A stretch of DNA of 64,000 nt from assembly GCF_030684035.1 (NCBI RefSeq), contig NZ_JAUXPI010000058.1, positions 1-64,000 of the forward strand, given 5' to 3'. Both the position numbers and the translations under genes were made by a program. Below, piece after piece: positions 31,181-38,478 of this stretch. The notes below the pieces were generated by a model. The model was not told the DNA's origin. It searched no databases and was given only the letters and a program-made list of their open reading frames with translations. Source of the DNA: Phaeovulum sp. GTDB lineage: Bacteria > Pseudomonadota > Alphaproteobacteria > Rhodobacterales > Rhodobacteraceae. Position 1 is the first letter of the stretch. The number at the start of each line of letters is the position of its first letter.

Positions 31181-32257
31181 ATGCCGAGTTTTGAGGCGCA
31201 GATCGAGGAAAGCCAGAAGCAGGTGGCCGAAACCCAGGCCCGCATGGCCGCGCTGACCGCGCGGATCGAGGCGGCAAGGGTCAAGGCCGAGGCCGGGCAG
31301 GACATCACGCTTGACATCGAAAACGCCACGCTGACCGATGTGCAGGCGCATGCCGACCTGATGAACGCCAATATCGCCGAGCTTATCATGGGCCTTGACG
31401 ATGTGACCGCCGGGTTTTCGCGCGATTTCGACCAGATGCGCACCAAGACCGGTTGGGAAAGCTTCGTTGGCGTCTTCGCGCGTGGAAAATCGGAAGCGAT
31501 GCGGCAAGAGCGGCTGCGCACCGCCAGCATCGACGCCAAACTGCAAGACCTGATCGGCAAATCCGATGTGATCGTGCGGCTGCTGGAAGGCCAGCTTGCG
31601 GAACTGAACACCCAAAAGGCACGCGTCGAAACCAACCTGACCGACACGCTTGCCGATCGCGAGGCCACCGTGGCGGCGCTGGAATCGGTGCGCGCCGAGA
31701 TTGAGGCGCTCGACCCGAAGATCATCGAATTGGAAAACAAGATCGCGGTGGAACAGGACGCGGCGGCGCGCACGCGGTTGGAGAGCGAACTGGCCGACCT
31801 CAACGTGCGCCACAACGCCTTGGTGCAGGACGAGCAGGTGAAGCTCGCCAAAAGCCAGACGCTGGAGCGCTACATCGAAAAGGGCAAGACCTGGGTGGAT
31901 AGCCTGCAAAATCAGGCCGCGACGCAAATGGTGCTGATCAACAAGCTCGCCACCGATACCAAGCAGCGCGTGGTGCTCTATGACGCGCTGACCAAATCGC
32001 TGAAAACCGCGCAGCAGCAGGACGTGGCACACCGCATCAACGAAATCGGCGTGCAGACCGACCAGGAGGCGCAGACCGCGATGGCGGGCATTGGCGCCGC
32101 CACCAACCAGCGTATGGCCGAAATGCTGGAAGCCCACGAAGGCCACATGGTCTTCGCCCGCAAGGTGCTGGAGCAAAAGGCGAAAGCCGACGAACGCTTT
32201 GCCCGCCGCTTCGCCGCGATCGTCGAAAAACACGACAAGAACCTTTATGGTGGCTGA
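31181..32257 (+). CDS. long coiled-coil protein of the AAA+ operon
   Basis: A 358-residue protein that is almost all helical, with heptad-rich coiled coil from about residue 3 to 55 and again from about 130 to 230, and a final helical region. No membrane segment or signal peptide. The ATG has GGAGGC five bases upstream; a TTG ten bases earlier is less likely. Its overall layout is reminiscent of TelA-type helical proteins, but I see no diagnostic motif. It overlaps the next gene and heads the operon that contains a AAA+ ATPase and two membrane proteins. Function unknown. Confidence 0.75.
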   Translation: MPSFEAQIEESQKQVAETQARMAALTARIEAARVKAEAGQDITLDIENATLTDVQAHADLMNANIAELIMGLDDVTAGFSRDFDQMRTKTGWESFVGVFARGKSEAMRQERLRTASIDAKLQDLIGKSDVIVRLLEGQLAELNTQKARVETNLTDTLADREATVAALESVRAEIEALDPKIIELENKIAVEQDAAARTRLESELADLNVRHNALVQDEQVKLAKSQTLERYIEKGKTWVDSLQNQAATQMVLINKLATDTKQRVVLYDALTKSLKTAQQQDVAHRINEIGVQTDQEAQTAMAGIGAATNQRMAEMLEAHEGHMVFARKVLEQKAKADERFARRFAAIVEKHDKNLYGG

Positions 32258-33377
32258 AGCAAACCTGACCCGCGACCACAAGCGGCTGGATGATGACCTT
32301 GCCGCGCGGCGCTACTTTGCCAAGTTCGACCGCATCACCCGGCTCTTGGTGTCGGTGGCCGGTGCGATGGAGGCTGACCGATCCCTGAGCCGCCGCGATA
32401 CCGGCGTGCTCGCGGGCTATGTGAACGCAATATCGGCCAGCTTCCGGGCGCTATCGCTCAAATACCTGGTTTCGGGGCGTGTCGACGGGCTTCTGGCCAA
32501 GCACCTGACGATCGATCTGCACGAAAGCGGTTTTCCGATTTATCAGGAACTGGCGAGCATGGCGAATGACGCGGCGCAGGCGGCGCTGCATCTGCGCGGC
32601 ATTGCGGCGGTGGCCGAGATCAAGGACGAGATGATCCGCCAGATTGTCGGTGCCCGCGAAATACCCACCAGGCTGCAATATGCATTGAGCCAGCGGCTTT
32701 ATTACGAGACGCTGGCCAAGGGCGGGCTCTACTGGCCGCAAATGCACCCGACCGCGCAATGGCTGGCCGACCTGCCGAAAGGGCGGCGCAGCTACCTTCT
32801 GCACTGGGCGGTTTATGACAGCCAGCTCAACGTGCCGGTGGTCTATCTGCTGGAAGCCGAAGACAGCGGCAGGCGTGCGCTGCCGCTCGATCAGGGGCGC
32901 TGGCCGCAGGTGCAGGCACATCTTCTGGCGCAATCGCTGGGCGGGCTGAAGCTGGTCACCATCGCGGGCGGGTTCGATGCAGACTTTGACGACCTGCACC
33001 CCAAACGCCTGCGCCGCATCCACCTTGGCCCGATGTATTCGAGCGTCTACACCCTGCAAACCGGCCCGATCCGCGAGGTGCTGGAAGAGGCGCATGCGCC
33101 CGAAGGCGAAGACTGGGCGCTGGCCTGGGCGGTGGAAGAGCTTGAGAGCGAGCGGGTAGAATGGGAAAAGGGATGGTTCAGCCAGACCGAGCGCCAGGTA
33201 TTCCGGCTTGACCCGTTTTCCGGGCGCGGTGCCGACCTCGGGGCAACCCGGCTGGCGCGGTCGATCATTCTGCCGCAGCGCCCGTTTCAGGTGCTGGCCG
33301 AAAAGGACCCCGAAGGGTTCCGCGAGGTGCGCAAGTTCGTGGTCGGGCGCGAGGGGCGGGTGCTGGTTTACAACTAG
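32247..33377 (+). CDS. uncharacterised protein of the AAA+ operon
   Basis: A 376-residue soluble protein that begins inside the preceding coding region (ATGG, out of frame, overlapping by 11 bases). The first 150 residues are helical (RDHKRLDDDLAARRYFAKFD, then KYLVSGRVDGLLAKHL); the second half has mixed character with HWAVYDSQLNVPVVYLLEAE and RRIHLGPMYSSVYTLQ. I recognise no family. Translational coupling to the coiled-coil protein argues that the two act together. Confidence 0.72.
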   Translation: MVAEANLTRDHKRLDDDLAARRYFAKFDRITRLLVSVAGAMEADRSLSRRDTGVLAGYVNAISASFRALSLKYLVSGRVDGLLAKHLTIDLHESGFPIYQELASMANDAAQAALHLRGIAAVAEIKDEMIRQIVGAREIPTRLQYALSQRLYYETLAKGGLYWPQMHPTAQWLADLPKGRRSYLLHWAVYDSQLNVPVVYLLEAEDSGRRALPLDQGRWPQVQAHLLAQSLGGLKLVTIAGGFDADFDDLHPKRLRRIHLGPMYSSVYTLQTGPIREVLEEAHAPEGEDWALAWAVEELESERVEWEKGWFSQTERQVFRLDPFSGRGADLGATRLARSIILPQRPFQVLAEKDPEGFREVRKFVVGREGRVLVYN

Positions 33378-33389
33378 GCCGGGGCAAGG

Positions 33390-33450
33390 CCGGGGGTTTT
33401 CCACCCCCGGACCCCCGGAGGATATTTCTGCTGAAGCAATTGCAGGGAAT
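33390..33450. repeat. dispersed intergenic repeat family, copy 3
   Basis: A hairpin CCGGGGGT/ACCCCCGG is followed by CCCGGAGGATATTTCTGCTG and AAGCA, matching the GGATATTT...CTGAAGCA family. It lies inside the operon, between the second gene and the AAA+ gene, so it may reduce but evidently does not block downstream transcription. Confidence 0.75.
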
Positions 33451-33455
33451 TCGAG

Positions 33456-35390
33456 ATGAGCATGCCGCGCGACGAGATGGAGCTGAAGGAAGAGGCGATC
33501 CGGGCACATTATGCCGCGGCGGCGGCACTGCTCGCCGGGCTTGACCACGCGCCGCGGCTGGCGAAGGCGATAGCGATAGAGCCGGTGGCGGAACGCTCGC
33601 CCGGCATCGGCGCGCGGCCGCGGTTCCGCTCGACCACGCCGGGGCTGGTGACGCGTTCCGTGGCGCGCGCCGAAGGGGTGCGGCTGGCCGAGCGGGTGCT
33701 GGCGGTGGGCGGCGACGATCTGCCGGGGCCGATGCGCGCCGCGGTGGTGCAAGGGCTGCGCCGGGCGTTGGCGATTGCGCTGGCGGTGGGCGAGGAATTT
33801 GCAACGGCGACGGGCCTCGCGGAACTGAAAAAGGCCAATCTGGAAGCGCGGCTGCCGGGCGCGAAGGCGGGCGAGTTTGGCGAGTTGCTGAGTGCCGAGG
33901 CGCTGGCGGTGCTCTCGGTTTTCGCCAATGCCACGGCGTTTCTGCTGGCACCGCAGGCTAGCGAGGTGACGGTCGAGGTTGGGGCGGTCGAGGAGATATT
34001 GACCGACAACGCCAGCCTCGCGCTGCACGGCGCGCTTTGGGAGCTGGATCAGGACATCGCCGCCTTCTCCAGCGACGAGGCGCGGTTGGTGGCGGTGGTG
34101 CTGGCCTATGCCGAGCAGTTGATGGAAAAGCTGCGGCTGCGCGCCGAAAGTGCGCCACGGCTCGGGGCGTTCACCGGTGCCAACTGGCGGGTGGCGGCAG
34201 ATGATTTTCCGATCGCGGGGTTTGCCCCGGCGCGCAAGGCCAAGGGCACGACGCTCAGCATGGCGTTCAAGAAGCCCAATGAGGTGGTCGGGAACCACAT
34301 CGCCAAATACCAGTCGATGCGGCTGGCGAAGATGCTGATGGCCTATGATTTCGACCGCCGCCTGAACCCTTTTGCCGAAATGGGCGGCTTCATCTTCACC
34401 TTCATGGGCGACGGCAAGCCGGGCACCGGCAAGACCACGCTCATTCAGATGATGGCGGGATTGCTGAACGATTACTGCAAGGTGGCGGGCTACCCGTTCC
34501 GCTACCAGAACCTGAGCATCGACAATGTCGACAGCTATCAGGGCAAGTCGGGGCAGAACGCCAAGGCCTTCATCACCTCGGTGATGGACCCGGCGGTGAT
34601 CGGCTTTGGCACGGTCGATGACATCGATCAGGTGGCGGGCAAGCGCGGTGATCGGCAAAGCTCCACCGGCCAGCAGGAAATAACCGCGGTGCTGATGGAG
34701 GCCTTTGCCGGGGCCAACACCGTGGTGCGCGGCAATTGCACGTTCGGGATGTTCTCGAACTACCCCGAGAATGTCGACGATGCCTTGCGCCAGCGGGCCG
34801 GGGCGCGGTTTCTGGTCGACGGGCCGCAAAGCCGCGAGGATTACATCGACATTCTGGCGCTGCTGCTGGGGCGCAACCACACCATCCCCTTGGGCGAGCA
34901 CGATCTTTACGGCGCTCAGGAGATCCGGCGTGCGGTGGCGGAAAGCTTCGAGCGGCACGGGCGGCCGCAAGAGGCGGGGCTGGTGACGGTGTGGCAGGCG
35001 GTGGAAGGGCGGCTGGGGCGGCTTGATACGCTGGCCAAATTGGGGGCGTATCTGAAGGCCATTCAGGAGGCCGACCCGCGCTTTACCGGCCGCGCGGTCA
35101 AGAACATCACCGATGCGGTCAAGGTGCGGGCGATGGATTTCGAGTTGCCCGATCTCTGGATGGAAGACCCCGAGCTGTTCCTGTTTCGAGATTACGACGC
35201 CAAACGCGCGATGATCGCCGATCTGCGCACGCCGATCACGGTGGAAATGGTGGTGCAGGAAATCAACCGCTACGCCGACAGCGAGTTCCGCTATGCCGAC
35301 AAGTCGGACGAGGCGGCGATTGAAGGGGCGGTGCGGGACATGCGGCGGATGGAAGAGGCGAAGCGAAGGTATCTGGAGGGGCGGGGGTGA
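33456..35390 (+). CDS. AAA+ ATPase, uncharacterised
   Basis: A 644-residue ATPase. A helical N-terminal part (about 1-240) precedes the AAA+ module: Walker A GDGKPGTGKTTL at about 318-329, Walker B GFGTVDDID at about 383-391 (D-D-I-D variant of the DE box), and the sensor/arginine-finger region NVDDALRQRAGARF at about 437-450. The C-terminal helical part ends in a charged coiled coil (RRMEEAKRRYLEGRG). The central protein of a seven-gene unit with coiled-coil and membrane proteins. It is soluble. The 3' end abuts a low-GC gene that starts on the stop codon. Probable role: remodelling motor acting on a membrane-associated partner. Confidence 0.82.
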   Translation: MSMPRDEMELKEEAIRAHYAAAAALLAGLDHAPRLAKAIAIEPVAERSPGIGARPRFRSTTPGLVTRSVARAEGVRLAERVLAVGGDDLPGPMRAAVVQGLRRALAIALAVGEEFATATGLAELKKANLEARLPGAKAGEFGELLSAEALAVLSVFANATAFLLAPQASEVTVEVGAVEEILTDNASLALHGALWELDQDIAAFSSDEARLVAVVLAYAEQLMEKLRLRAESAPRLGAFTGANWRVAADDFPIAGFAPARKAKGTTLSMAFKKPNEVVGNHIAKYQSMRLAKMLMAYDFDRRLNPFAEMGGFIFTFMGDGKPGTGKTTLIQMMAGLLNDYCKVAGYPFRYQNLSIDNVDSYQGKSGQNAKAFITSVMDPAVIGFGTVDDIDQVAGKRGDRQSSTGQQEITAVLMEAFAGANTVVRGNCTFGMFSNYPENVDDALRQRAGARFLVDGPQSREDYIDILALLLGRNHTIPLGEHDLYGAQEIRRAVAESFERHGRPQEAGLVTVWQAVEGRLGRLDTLAKLGAYLKAIQEADPRFTGRAVKNITDAVKVRAMDFELPDLWMEDPELFLFRDYDAKRAMIADLRTPITVEMVVQEINRYADSEFRYADKSDEAAIEGAVRDMRRMEEAKRRYLEGRG

Positions 35391-35992
35391 TGTGTGCAAT
35401 TTGGAGTGTCATTGCGGATTGGGTTGTAGCTATTGCTGCATTACTTGGTGCCATAGCGGCGTGTCTGGGTGTCAATACTTGGAAAAAACAGAATGAATGG
35501 CAGGCAAACAGGGACTTGGTTCAAAGGCTCGTTATTGCGCTTGGTGTCTATCGAAGCGCCGTCCTGTCGGCGCGTAGGCCCGTAACGGATCGGGAAACTA
35601 GCGTCGGCGATTTGGATTCTGATACCGTTCCGGATGACGTAAGCGATAAGGGGCTCTACGCCGCATTCGTGACTCGACTCAAACAGATCAGAGAGGCGCG
35701 CAACGAACTGGATGGCCTGTTTCTTGAGACAGATGCGTTCTGGAAACCTGCCATAAGGTCAAAGTTTGAGGCGATTACCAAACAAGAAATCGACCTCACG
35801 CTCGGCGTCGACAACTTGCTCAACAGTCTGCGTGAAGATGACCCCGACACCGCGCGTGGATTTGCAGAGTTGATTGATGAGAGGGTGCTTTACGATAAGC
35901 TTTCCGATAGCGACGAGTTTCGCGCCAAGTTTGATAAGACACTGAGCGACGTGCATTCCTATTTGGCGGCGAAGGTGGGGAAATTGAAATGA
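35390..35992 (+). CDS. low-GC membrane-anchored protein inserted in the AAA+ operon
   Basis: A 200-residue protein with one N-terminal membrane helix (about residues 4-28, IWSVIADWVVAIAALLGAI region) and a long helical cytoplasmic body ending AAKVGKLK. The ATG overlaps the stop of the ATPase gene (TGATG). The base composition is clearly A+T-richer than the operon on either side, and a 90-bp structured repeat follows 54 bases after the stop, as behind the DUF2513 pair in pheST. No family recognised. It is probably a recent passenger in the operon rather than a core component. Confidence 0.7.
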   Translation: MCAIWSVIADWVVAIAALLGAIAACLGVNTWKKQNEWQANRDLVQRLVIALGVYRSAVLSARRPVTDRETSVGDLDSDTVPDDVSDKGLYAAFVTRLKQIREARNELDGLFLETDAFWKPAIRSKFEAITKQEIDLTLGVDNLLNSLREDDPDTARGFAELIDERVLYDKLSDSDEFRAKFDKTLSDVHSYLAAKVGKLK

Positions 35993-36046
35993 GTCGGTTG
36001 GGAAAGGCGGCTCGCAATTGTCGCGCAGGTGCGCAATCCGAATCAT

Positions 36047-36136
36047 CCTTCCGCCCGTGCGCCAGCACGGGCAGCGCCCGAACCGCCCCCACGGGGCGGG
36101 CGCTTTACGCCCACCCCTCGGTTCGGGCGCTGCCCT
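36047..36136. repeat. 90-bp structured palindromic repeat, copy 2
   Basis: Matches 5743-5832 over its whole length with five substitutions. Hairpin A is CCCGTGC-GCCA-GCACGGG here, differing from copy 1 at two positions on each arm so that both pairs are kept. The fifth change is in a loop (CTTTA versus CTTCA). The 17-bp outer stem is unchanged. It lies between the low-GC gene and the next operon gene. Confidence 0.9.
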
Positions 36137-36166
36137 TCGCACTTTGCGGCACCGTAAGGTAACCCC

Positions 36167-37522
36167 ATGAAACGCCTCATCACCCGCGGCCTGATGTACG
36201 GCAACCTGATCCGCATCGACGCGCCTGCCTTGGTCGAGCGCTACAACCGCGCCTTGAAGCAACTCTCCGGCCGCACCACCACCCTCACCGAATTCCACAT
36301 CGACCTTGCCGGCTTTTCCCCCGAGATCGCCGATGAATTGGGCGATGAGCTTTATCTCAACCCCAAGGGCTGCAACCGGCAGTTCATCCTGCTTTCGACC
36401 GAGCAAAAGGACGCCCCCCTGCTCAACGCGCAGTTTTCCAACTGGCGCTCCATCCTGACCCGCTTCATCGAGGCCAACGAGGCGCAGCTATTCTCGCTCA
36501 CCGCGCGCGATGCGGTGGCGGGGGAACTGGAGGATTCGGTCTACGAGGTTGATACCCCCGCCCGGCTATTCGATTTCAACCGCATCAGCGTGGTGGCCGA
36601 TACCACCGGCGCGCATGTGGCCGAGGCGGCGAAGCTTGCCACCCTGATCGAGCGGTTCCGCAAGGAACCGGACGCCTGGTGGGATGACGTGCTGATCGCG
36701 CAAATGATTGGTCTCGCCAAGAAAACCGGCGATGTGACACGCCAGCCGGTGCTGCTTGGCTCTACCAGTTTCGAGACGCCGGATTTCTGGACCGCGCATT
36801 TCGGCGGGCTATACCTCTTTCGCTCGGTCGAACACCCGGCGGCGATTTCGGTGGGGCCGCGCGAGGCGCTGGGCAGCCTGCCGATCAAGAACCTTTATGA
36901 CCTCAGCCAGCGCAACGAGGTGGCGAAGTTTCTGGAAATCAACGGCCTCGCCGAACCCATCGTGCGTGCGCGCGGCACCGATTCGGGCGCGATCTTGCGG
37001 CAGAAGATGGATTTCATTCTGGTCGAGGCGGCAACCCGGCTTGGCCTTGTCACCGGCGAAGGCACCACGCGCGCCGCCTTGCGCGCGGTGGCGCAATCCC
37101 TGGGCGCGCGGCTTCCCGATGAATTCCAGGGCCTTGCCGCGCTTCTGCGCTGGGTCGAGGCGGGCGGGCCATGGCCGCAGATGGATAGCCGCCACGCTGC
37201 CTATTTCTACACAATGCGCGCCACGCAGGGGCCCAACCGCGACCTGGTGAACATGCTCTTGGCCGAACTCGCGCCGCTGGATGTGCGCCAGCTTTTCATC
37301 TGCCACAAGGAACTGTTCTACCGCCTCTACGCCACCTGGCCCGAACCCAAGCGCGCCTATGTGGCAGATTTTCTGGGGCGCGAATATCAGCTAGACAAGG
37401 CTGGCGCGCGGGCAGAGCTGTTCGGCCCCGAACCCGACATGGCCAATGCCGCGCCCGCGCCGCAGCGTGATCTGGTGGAAATGGTCGGGCCCTGGGGCTC
37501 GGTGAAAGGCGGGCGAAAATGA
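36167..37522 (+). CDS. DUF6638-like protein of the AAA+ operon
   Basis: A 451-residue soluble protein starting MKRLITRGLMYGNLIRIDAP, with LSGRTTTLTEFHIDLAGFSPEIADELGD, a central WDDVLIAQMIGLAKKTGDV and a C-terminal DVRQLFICHKELFYRLY. I recall proteins like this being annotated DUF6638 in Rhodobacterales, but cannot verify it. No known catalytic motif. The ATG stands about 30 bases after the structured repeat. It overlaps the next, small membrane-protein gene by ATGA. Confidence 0.72.
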   Translation: MKRLITRGLMYGNLIRIDAPALVERYNRALKQLSGRTTTLTEFHIDLAGFSPEIADELGDELYLNPKGCNRQFILLSTEQKDAPLLNAQFSNWRSILTRFIEANEAQLFSLTARDAVAGELEDSVYEVDTPARLFDFNRISVVADTTGAHVAEAAKLATLIERFRKEPDAWWDDVLIAQMIGLAKKTGDVTRQPVLLGSTSFETPDFWTAHFGGLYLFRSVEHPAAISVGPREALGSLPIKNLYDLSQRNEVAKFLEINGLAEPIVRARGTDSGAILRQKMDFILVEAATRLGLVTGEGTTRAALRAVAQSLGARLPDEFQGLAALLRWVEAGGPWPQMDSRHAAYFYTMRATQGPNRDLVNMLLAELAPLDVRQLFICHKELFYRLYATWPEPKRAYVADFLGREYQLDKAGARAELFGPEPDMANAAPAPQRDLVEMVGPWGSVKGGRK

Positions 37523-37791
37523 TCGGATTTCTGCGGGTGGCATTCTTCGCGCTCATCGGCCTGTCGGTGCTCTACTGGCTGCTGTCGCTCTATTCCCGCT
37601 CGACCGAGCGCGAGCGGCTGGAAAAGAAATGGGATGCCGCCCCGCCCGAAGATGCACCCGACCGCGAGGCCTACATTGAGGCGGGCATGGCGAAATACGA
37701 AAAGAGCCTTCGGCACAAGCTGATCTGGCTGGTCTACATCGTTCCGATGGCGGTGGTGGCGGTCATCATCTACATCGTGAACGCGCAATAG
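37519..37791 (+). CDS. two-TM small membrane protein of the AAA+ operon
   Basis: A 90-residue protein with two membrane helices (about residues 3-24 and 69-88) separated by a highly charged 44-residue stretch (STERERLEKKWDAAPPED). ATG overlaps the previous stop. Probably inner membrane with the charged loop in the cytoplasm, where it could be a docking point for the soluble ATPase complex. That is inference. No family known. Confidence 0.72.
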   Translation: MIGFLRVAFFALIGLSVLYWLLSLYSRSTERERLEKKWDAAPPEDAPDREAYIEAGMAKYEKSLRHKLIWLVYIVPMAVVAVIIYIVNAQ

Positions 37792-37800
37792 GAGGTGCCG

Positions 37801-38478
37801 ATGTGGCGCTATGTCAAATGGGGTTTCCGCCTCTCGGTGGTGCTCACGCTGTTCCTGTTCCTGCATTACACGCTGCCGCAGCATGATATCGTGCGCATTA
37901 CCGAAACCTACAACCGCATCACCACGGTCGGCGCGAATGCGCTGTTCTACGCCTCGCCCGATGCCGGCACCGCCGAGGGCACCAATACCCGCGACATCCG
38001 CTTTATCGCCACGGCGCGCCCGAACGACAAGGTGATCGTCTATCGCAACGAGGATACCGGGCTGATCTGGCCGCCCTATTTCAAATACGACAGTTCCAAC
38101 CTTCAGGCAGAAGCCAGCAACCTGCGCTCCGACAAGATCAACCCGCAGTGGGTTTCGGTCACCCATTACGGCTGGCGGATACCGTTCTTCTCGATTTATC
38201 CGAATGCGGTGGCGGTAAAGGCGGTGGCAGGCCCCGATGTGCGGATCATCCCTTGGGTCAATATCGTCGTGCTGACCGTGCTCTTGCTCGTTGCGCTGAT
38301 GTTGCGCCGGATGTGGCTGCAATTTCGCGAGCGCATGCTCGACCCGGTGGCACAGGACGTGGCCGAGGCCTGGGATGGGGTTGAAGACCGTGGCGAGGCG
38401 GCGGCGAAAAAGGCGCGCGGCATCTGGGGCCGGTTCGTCGATTGGCTTGGCACCTTTCGCGGCAGACCGCGCCGCTAG
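37801..38478 (+). CDS. DUF1523 family membrane protein
   Basis: A 225-residue protein of the DUF1523 family: MWRYVKWGFRLSVVLTLFLF is the first helix, followed by the family signature HYTLPQHDIVRITETYNR, MVYRNEDTG-like IVYRNEDTGLIWPPYFKYDS, NLQAEASNLRS and VSVTHYGWRIPFFSIYPNAV. A second helix lies near residues 161-181 and the C-terminal tail is basic. A large domain between helices is probably periplasmic. GGAGG precedes the ATG. Last gene of the AAA+ operon; it converges on a minus-strand gene with no gap. Confidence 0.8.
   Translation: MWRYVKWGFRLSVVLTLFLFLHYTLPQHDIVRITETYNRITTVGANALFYASPDAGTAEGTNTRDIRFIATARPNDKVIVYRNEDTGLIWPPYFKYDSSNLQAEASNLRSDKINPQWVSVTHYGWRIPFFSIYPNAVAVKAVAGPDVRIIPWVNIVVLTVLLLVALMLRRMWLQFRERMLDPVAQDVAEAWDGVEDRGEAAAKKARGIWGRFVDWLGTFRGRPRR

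Follow-up and report, generated by a model that had tools for sequence, protein, structure and literature searches.

The window examined here is a stretch of 64,000 nucleotides from Phaeovulum sp. (Rhodobacteraceae; assembly GCF_030684035.1, contig NZ_JAUXPI010000058.1, positions 1 to 64,000), in which an operon built around an AAA ATPase occupies positions 31181 to 38478. Four genes of this operon, g1, g2, g3 (the AAA ATPase) and g5 (a DUF6638 protein), form a co-inherited core, and the junction between the last two is a hypervariable slot whose cargo is exchanged among species of one genus, with the core remaining in place. The source genome is a draft of 2.96 Mb in 65 contigs, and the named organisms nearest to it by the AAA protein are Paracoccaceae, including Defluviimonas. 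A preliminary description of the stretch, made from its letters, had proposed six co-directional core genes with tight overlaps at some of the junctions, and an additional low-GC gene inserted among them. All six open reading frames (ORFs) lie on the + strand where that description placed them. The genes and features of the operon are as follows.

31181..32257, + strand: g1, core; all-helical coiled-coil protein of 358 aa, its ATG preceded by GGAGG
32247..33377, + strand: g2, core; soluble alpha+beta protein of 375-376 aa without a known family, its order kept in all clades
33383..33438, no strand: dispersed genomic repeat of about 55 bp in the gap between g2 and the AAA gene, matched about 20 more times elsewhere in the genome
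33456..35390, + strand: g3, core; AAA ATPase of 644 aa (PF00004, 5.6e-12)
35387..36166, + strand: exchange slot, from the AAA stop to the DUF6638 start, recognised from gap sizes across loci, empty slots in relatives and a shuffle control
35387..35992, + strand: g4, slot cargo; low-GC gene for a protein of 201 aa with an N-terminal transmembrane segment, with relatives in the slots of loci L088 and L148
36040..36160, no strand: GC-rich palindromic remnant along the right-hand margin of the slot, similar to palindromes in near-empty slots of relatives
36167..37522, + strand: g5, core; DUF6638 protein of 451 aa (PF20343, 4.5e-212), which shares genomes with the AAA gene
37519..37791, + strand: g6, Rhodobacterales accessory; protein of 90 aa with two transmembrane segments and a charged loop, absent from Rhizobiaceae-type and Vibrio loci
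37801..38478, + strand: g7, accessory; DUF1523 protein of 225 aa (PF07509, 1.1e-67)

The tight packing of the genes holds for part of the operon. The ATG of g2 at 32247 sits within the 3' end of g1, and g5 and g6 overlap by 4 nt, but 78 bp separate g2 from the AAA gene and 174 bp separate g4 from the DUF6638 gene. The first of these gaps contains the dispersed repeat, which is GC-rich with the core GGGGGTTTTCCACCCCCGGACCCCCGGAGGATATTT, is present as a single copy in the window and supplies the GGAGG upstream of the AAA start. The GTG start of g4 overlaps the AAA stop by 4 nt, with an ATG next at 35390, and its GC content at third codon positions (GC3) is 0.56 versus 0.79-0.84 in the core genes. 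No promoters, terminators or Rfam RNAs exceeding chance level were detected in the operon.

A co-inherited four-gene core

All six genes are present, with order and strand unchanged, in 20 of 20 further family genomes and in 71 of 80 Rhodobacterales loci from named organisms, which include Defluviimonas, Rhodobacter, Tabrizicola, Shimia, Ruegeria, Leisingera, Marivita and Sulfitobacter. Six of the remaining nine loci are cut by contig ends, and three are without the downstream half in the available stretch. As the order is conserved across dozens of genera, a chance arrangement is excluded. The preliminary description had made its proposal depend in advance on the genes co-occurring elsewhere; they do, and the co-inherited operon that it envisaged around the ATPase, with membrane and coiled-coil components, is supported. 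Among 61 family genomes, g1 is present in 28, the AAA gene in the same 28 and the DUF6638 gene in 29, with the 29th represented by a match at a contig start. Of the 197 genomes sampled from the order, 113 have the ATPase, and a class-wide sample of 240 genomes has the AAA and DUF6638 genes in the same four.

A phylum-wide sample reveals the ATPase in a second alphaproteobacterial family, whose loci harbor g1, g2, the AAA gene and the DUF6638 gene in the same order, without g6 and g7. Named records of Sinorhizobium and related replicons, and of 0.9-Mb Vibrio replicons, display the same four-gene arrangement; in S. meliloti (pSymB) and Vibrio, all four core proteins are confirmed by profiles at E <= 3e-82. 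Since neither the Rhizobiaceae nor the Vibrio version has g6 or g7, the core consists of four genes and not of the six originally proposed, which do stand together in Rhodobacterales. The g6-g7 membrane pair is an accessory of Rhodobacterales and some relatives, and g7 is also present in the outgroup locus L165. Congeners cluster together in the AAA tree, and the inheritance of the core therefore looks largely vertical, although its flanks belong to several different contexts. The operon was not found in phages or IMG/VR viral contigs, and the ATPase is present in ten plasmid-collection records, all of which are typed as non-mobilizable. The core lies directly upstream of mfd in the Vibrio loci L190 and L192, where the slot is empty (48 bp between annotated genes).

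Pfam assigns the AAA (5.6e-12), DUF6638 (4.5e-212; 705 bits with a cut-off of 27) and DUF1523 (1.1e-67; 227 bits with a cut-off of 23) proteins, the last two in agreement with the preliminary naming, and no curated Pfam family scores above cut-off for g1, g2, g6 or g4. The DUF6638 and DUF1523 families are without known function, and a literature search found no paper naming DUF6638 and four that refer to DUF1523. The six proteins first taken as core show no sequence relationship to one another. The model of g2 is confident (pLDDT, the predicted local distance difference test score, of 88), and its fold has no significant PDB match (Foldseek E>=0.16; VIA best Z 4.8, to T-fold enzymes and under the background of that tool), so that it is assigned no fold; its 21 relatives have no recurrent Pfam match. 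The N-terminal and second hydrophobic segments of g7 flank an extracytoplasmic domain, and the protein carries conserved WPPYFK, YRNEDT and HYGWR motifs.

The motifs of the AAA protein are the Walker A PGTGKTT, the pore-loop-1 SYQGKS (Y361) of the aromatic-x-Gly type, whose position is inferred via alignment with the i-AAA protease, the Walker B DDID at residues 388-391, as the preliminary description had read it, and the arginines R445, R447 and R451. The Walker A, SYQGKS, the Walker B aspartates and the three arginines are invariant in Rhodobacterales, Rhizobiaceae-type loci and the outgroup. Sequence comparison places g3 near the classic AAA clade, because the best alignments of its AAA domain among PDB sequences are with i-AAA protease, fidgetin-like 1, katanin and Vps4. 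Polypeptide threading or disassembly is an established activity of this clade, and would accordingly be expected of g3.

The coiled-coil protein g1, with homologues in Rhizobiaceae and Vibrio, has a mean column identity of 83% across 21 relatives. Its model is a long antiparallel hairpin (helices 103-190/194-279) with further helices, which is one of the grounds for a reading in terms of ESCRT-III/PspA-like membrane remodelling, where g1 would be a remote PspA/Snf7-type hairpin polymer and g3 a Vps4-like disassembly ATPase, acting in inner-membrane repair under stress. The resemblance of the AAA protein to classic-clade ATPases including Vps4 is consistent with such a role, as are the reported bacterial PspA/Snf7 neighbourhoods with classic AAA ATPases (PMC11237479). 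The confidence of the g1 model is low, however (mean pLDDT 57, too weak to decide), and in the PDB it matches many coiled coils of a generic kind, Vipp1 among them. No PspA_IM30 or Snf7 domain is among the Pfam matches listed for the 21 g1 members at E<=1, and no MIT domain is matched on g3 at the same threshold. Assignment of g1 to the PspA/ESCRT-III family is thus unsupported by sequence, and the remodelling of membranes by this route is improbable.

The possibility that g1 is a divergent TelA, which would place the operon in the toxic-anion (tellurite) resistance group, is very slight. Both are long helical proteins, and a short stretch of g1 (about residues 79-133) aligns with the corresponding region of TelA. 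The profile probability of this alignment is just 1.6-1.8%, and PF05816 matches 0 of 21 g1 members; g1 is rejected as a TelA on these grounds. A true TelA gene lies separately on contig 28 of the genome (13560-14546), and most of the family genomes tested likewise have one.

A hypervariable slot within the operon

The gap between the AAA and DUF6638 genes exceeds 250 bp in 87 of 106 loci, whereas each of two junctions further downstream in the operon does so in 0 of 95. In several of the loci where the slot is empty, the AAA stop overlaps or abuts the DUF6638 start directly, which looks like the ancestral state. Occupied slots hold one to three ORFs on the + strand. The stop positions of these ORFs are unambiguous, whereas their exact start codons are predicted. 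Dinucleotide shuffles of the same 87 slots served as a control. ORFs cover 93% of the real slots versus 47% of the shuffled ones, and reach 150 aa in 54 of 87 slots versus 6.6. The cargo start lies at -8, -4 or -1, counted from the AAA stop, in 51 of 87 slots (12.6 in shuffles, standard deviation 2.7), the cargo stop and the DUF6638 start share 4 nt in 54 (8.0, standard deviation 1.9), and both features occur together in 32 (2.6, standard deviation 1.3). The reverse strand of the slot is similar to shuffled sequence, with the exception of 20 start overlaps.

The content of the slot varies between loci with very similar cores. Among 50 locus pairs with AAA proteins at least 90% identical, 43 differ: 36 carry unrelated cargo and seven pair an occupied slot with an empty one, while the other seven have homologous cargo. 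Ruegeria-clade cores are near-identical, yet harbor different cargo, and the window has a cargo gene where its close relative L039 has 130 bp of palindromic DNA. The low-GC gene that the preliminary description set apart from the core is indeed low in GC; it is, however, one of the genes that occupy a conserved exchange slot, and no other feature of the locus is as informative as this slot. GC-rich palindromic elements resembling repetitive extragenic palindromes, and like that at 36040-36160 of the window, fill the cargo-free slots of L039, L047, L152 and L172. In S. meliloti pSymB (L191, 11016-12761), the slot contains a DUF559-like gene with an endonuclease domain, together with the transposase of ISRm16.

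Membrane proteins are over-represented in the cargo: a simple hydropathy count gives a membrane segment in 69 of 103 cargo proteins versus 139 of 514 genes from the neighbourhood, which were selected by codon-position GC. Cargo GC content is lower than that of the AAA gene, the median difference being 8 points. The majority of cargo proteins have no Pfam family match. The domains recognised include the conflict-type Mrr restriction endonuclease, DEDDh exonuclease with BRCT, Schlafen (SLFN) AlbA_2, DUF433 and PIN pair, AbiJ_NTD4 and PDC-S31, together with HATPase and DUF559; a few single cargo proteins have strong matches in PADLOC.

The cargo is a mix of slot-dedicated and promiscuous genes. 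One polymorphic family, A16, is almost confined to the slot; its members share a conserved N-terminal membrane motif, PNEVGDTLAGFAG, and are otherwise very divergent. The A16 profile, which was built from slot members and so favours slot relatives, has 22 matches in the 197 genomes, 16 of them at most 520 bp from an AAA gene, including all 14 with E<1e-20. The other six matches are weak (E of at least 1e-17) and cover mainly the motif. Among the compared loci, relatives of g4 (34-35%) are confined to the slots of L088 and L148, and no copies were found elsewhere in the 61 family genomes, plasmids and viral contigs. The HATPase cargo has relatives on unrelated plasmids.

Two further junctions are variable. 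The g1/g2 junction is a second, smaller exchange site, exceeding 250 bp in 34 of 108 loci, and its inserts (e.g. in L040, L051, L116, L138 and L162) are usually a small hydrophobic-protein ORF overlapping the g1 stop. In L102 and L107, which belong to two genera, inserts of about 1.6 kb between g2 and the AAA gene contain one large membrane-protein-like ORF each.

Interchangeable partners or a permissive site

The reading that we tentatively favour, at a little short of an even chance, is that of a conserved machine for AAA-driven remodelling, whose operon carries an internal slot in which partner genes are exchanged. Its biochemical function is put forward here as a prediction. The AAA protein would form a hexameric ring whose pore loop (Y361) threads or disassembles the long coiled-coil g1, with g2 and the DUF6638 protein as putative adaptors or subunits, and g6 and g7 may locate the machine at the inner membrane. 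The slot genes would be synthesised in step with the ATPase through translational coupling, and their products may be membrane modules that can be swapped for one another and that either are controlled by the machine or feed it, as effectors, sensors or immunity proteins. The machine would most plausibly take part in a response of the conflict or envelope-integrity type, for example anti-phage defence; the part in envelope maintenance or stress response that the preliminary description suggested is a possible one. It is rather unlikely that the locus is a conflict system of a new, modular kind, in which a membrane machine of AAA and coiled-coil proteins has its own translationally coupled slot for the exchange of lineage-specific polymorphic membrane effectors, with the core as their common sensor or trigger.

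The main alternative is a housekeeping operon that contains a permissive site. Here, the core would carry out envelope or protein-complex maintenance, and the junction would tolerate promoterless insertions that are expressed from the operon, in the manner of integron cassettes, and are functionally unlinked to it; this is possible, although we would not expect it. Many lineages keep the core with an empty slot, the cargo types are mutually unrelated, and some of them are promiscuous, such as the HATPase family; the insertion sequence element in the pSymB slot and the palindromic remnants in other slots are also consistent with a parking site. The strong membrane-protein bias of the cargo does not fit such a site, and neither do the essentially slot-restricted distribution of one cargo family and of g4 or the lack of large inserts at the downstream junctions of the same operon.

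Several observations weigh against the favoured reading. The slot is nearly empty in about one-fifth of loci, and the cargo is therefore dispensable. PADLOC families number 28 among 103 cargo proteins versus 26 among 105 flank ORFs, a control that includes some spurious ORFs; with the numbers so similar, no enrichment of the cargo in defence genes is claimed. The A16 profile is biased towards the slot by its construction, the core of the window is not near recognisable defence genes, with several unrelated contexts flanking it across genomes, and g1 is placed in no remodelled-filament family by the analyses here. The permissive site is favoured by empty slots, by the diversity of the cargo and by the PADLOC control, and interchangeable modules are favoured by the membrane bias and the slot-restricted families.

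If the slot genes work with the ATPase, the operon would represent a widespread uncharacterised system with interchangeable parts, spanning 113 of the 197 genomes of the order and reaching Rhizobiaceae and Vibrio. The slot provides a ready list of rapidly exchanged membrane proteins without a known role, some of them in a slot-confined family, that are candidate defence or envelope-response effectors. DUF6638, DUF1523 and two unnamed families gain a genetic context and a set of partners; the operon, the four-gene core and the slot are new here.

Comparison with known systems

No annotated match to the gene set was identified in PADLOC, Pfam or NCBIfam, consistent with the preliminary description, which could name no known function for any of the genes. 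The core proteins match no described defence system in PADLOC, where weak AAA-level matches alone were obtained (TRIP13, 7.3e-5; IetA, 0.003). Among the proteins of the operon, g5 and g7 are clear members of the Pfam families DUF6638 (PF20343) and DUF1523 (PF07509). The closest functional analogy is offered by the bacterial PspA/Snf7 operons with classic AAA ATPases that have been described (PMC11237479). As in the PspA/Snf7-Vps4 pairing, one operon encodes a helical coiled-coil protein next to an AAA ATPase of the classic clade, together with membrane proteins. The present locus differs in that no PspA/Snf7 signature is seen in g1 and no MIT domain is detected in g3, and in that its g2 and DUF6638 proteins have no relation to the partners reported for PspA/Snf7.

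The likeness of g1 to TelA (PF05816) consists of a long, all-helical, soluble protein with a weak local profile alignment; the alignment is not significant and the true TelA is encoded elsewhere in the genome. Type I restriction operons can embed variable genes, e.g. the rlo genes of Campylobacter. While the core here is an AAA/coiled-coil set with no restriction enzyme, and its cargo consists mostly of membrane proteins, both arrangements hold exchangeable, sometimes defence-type genes within a conserved operon.

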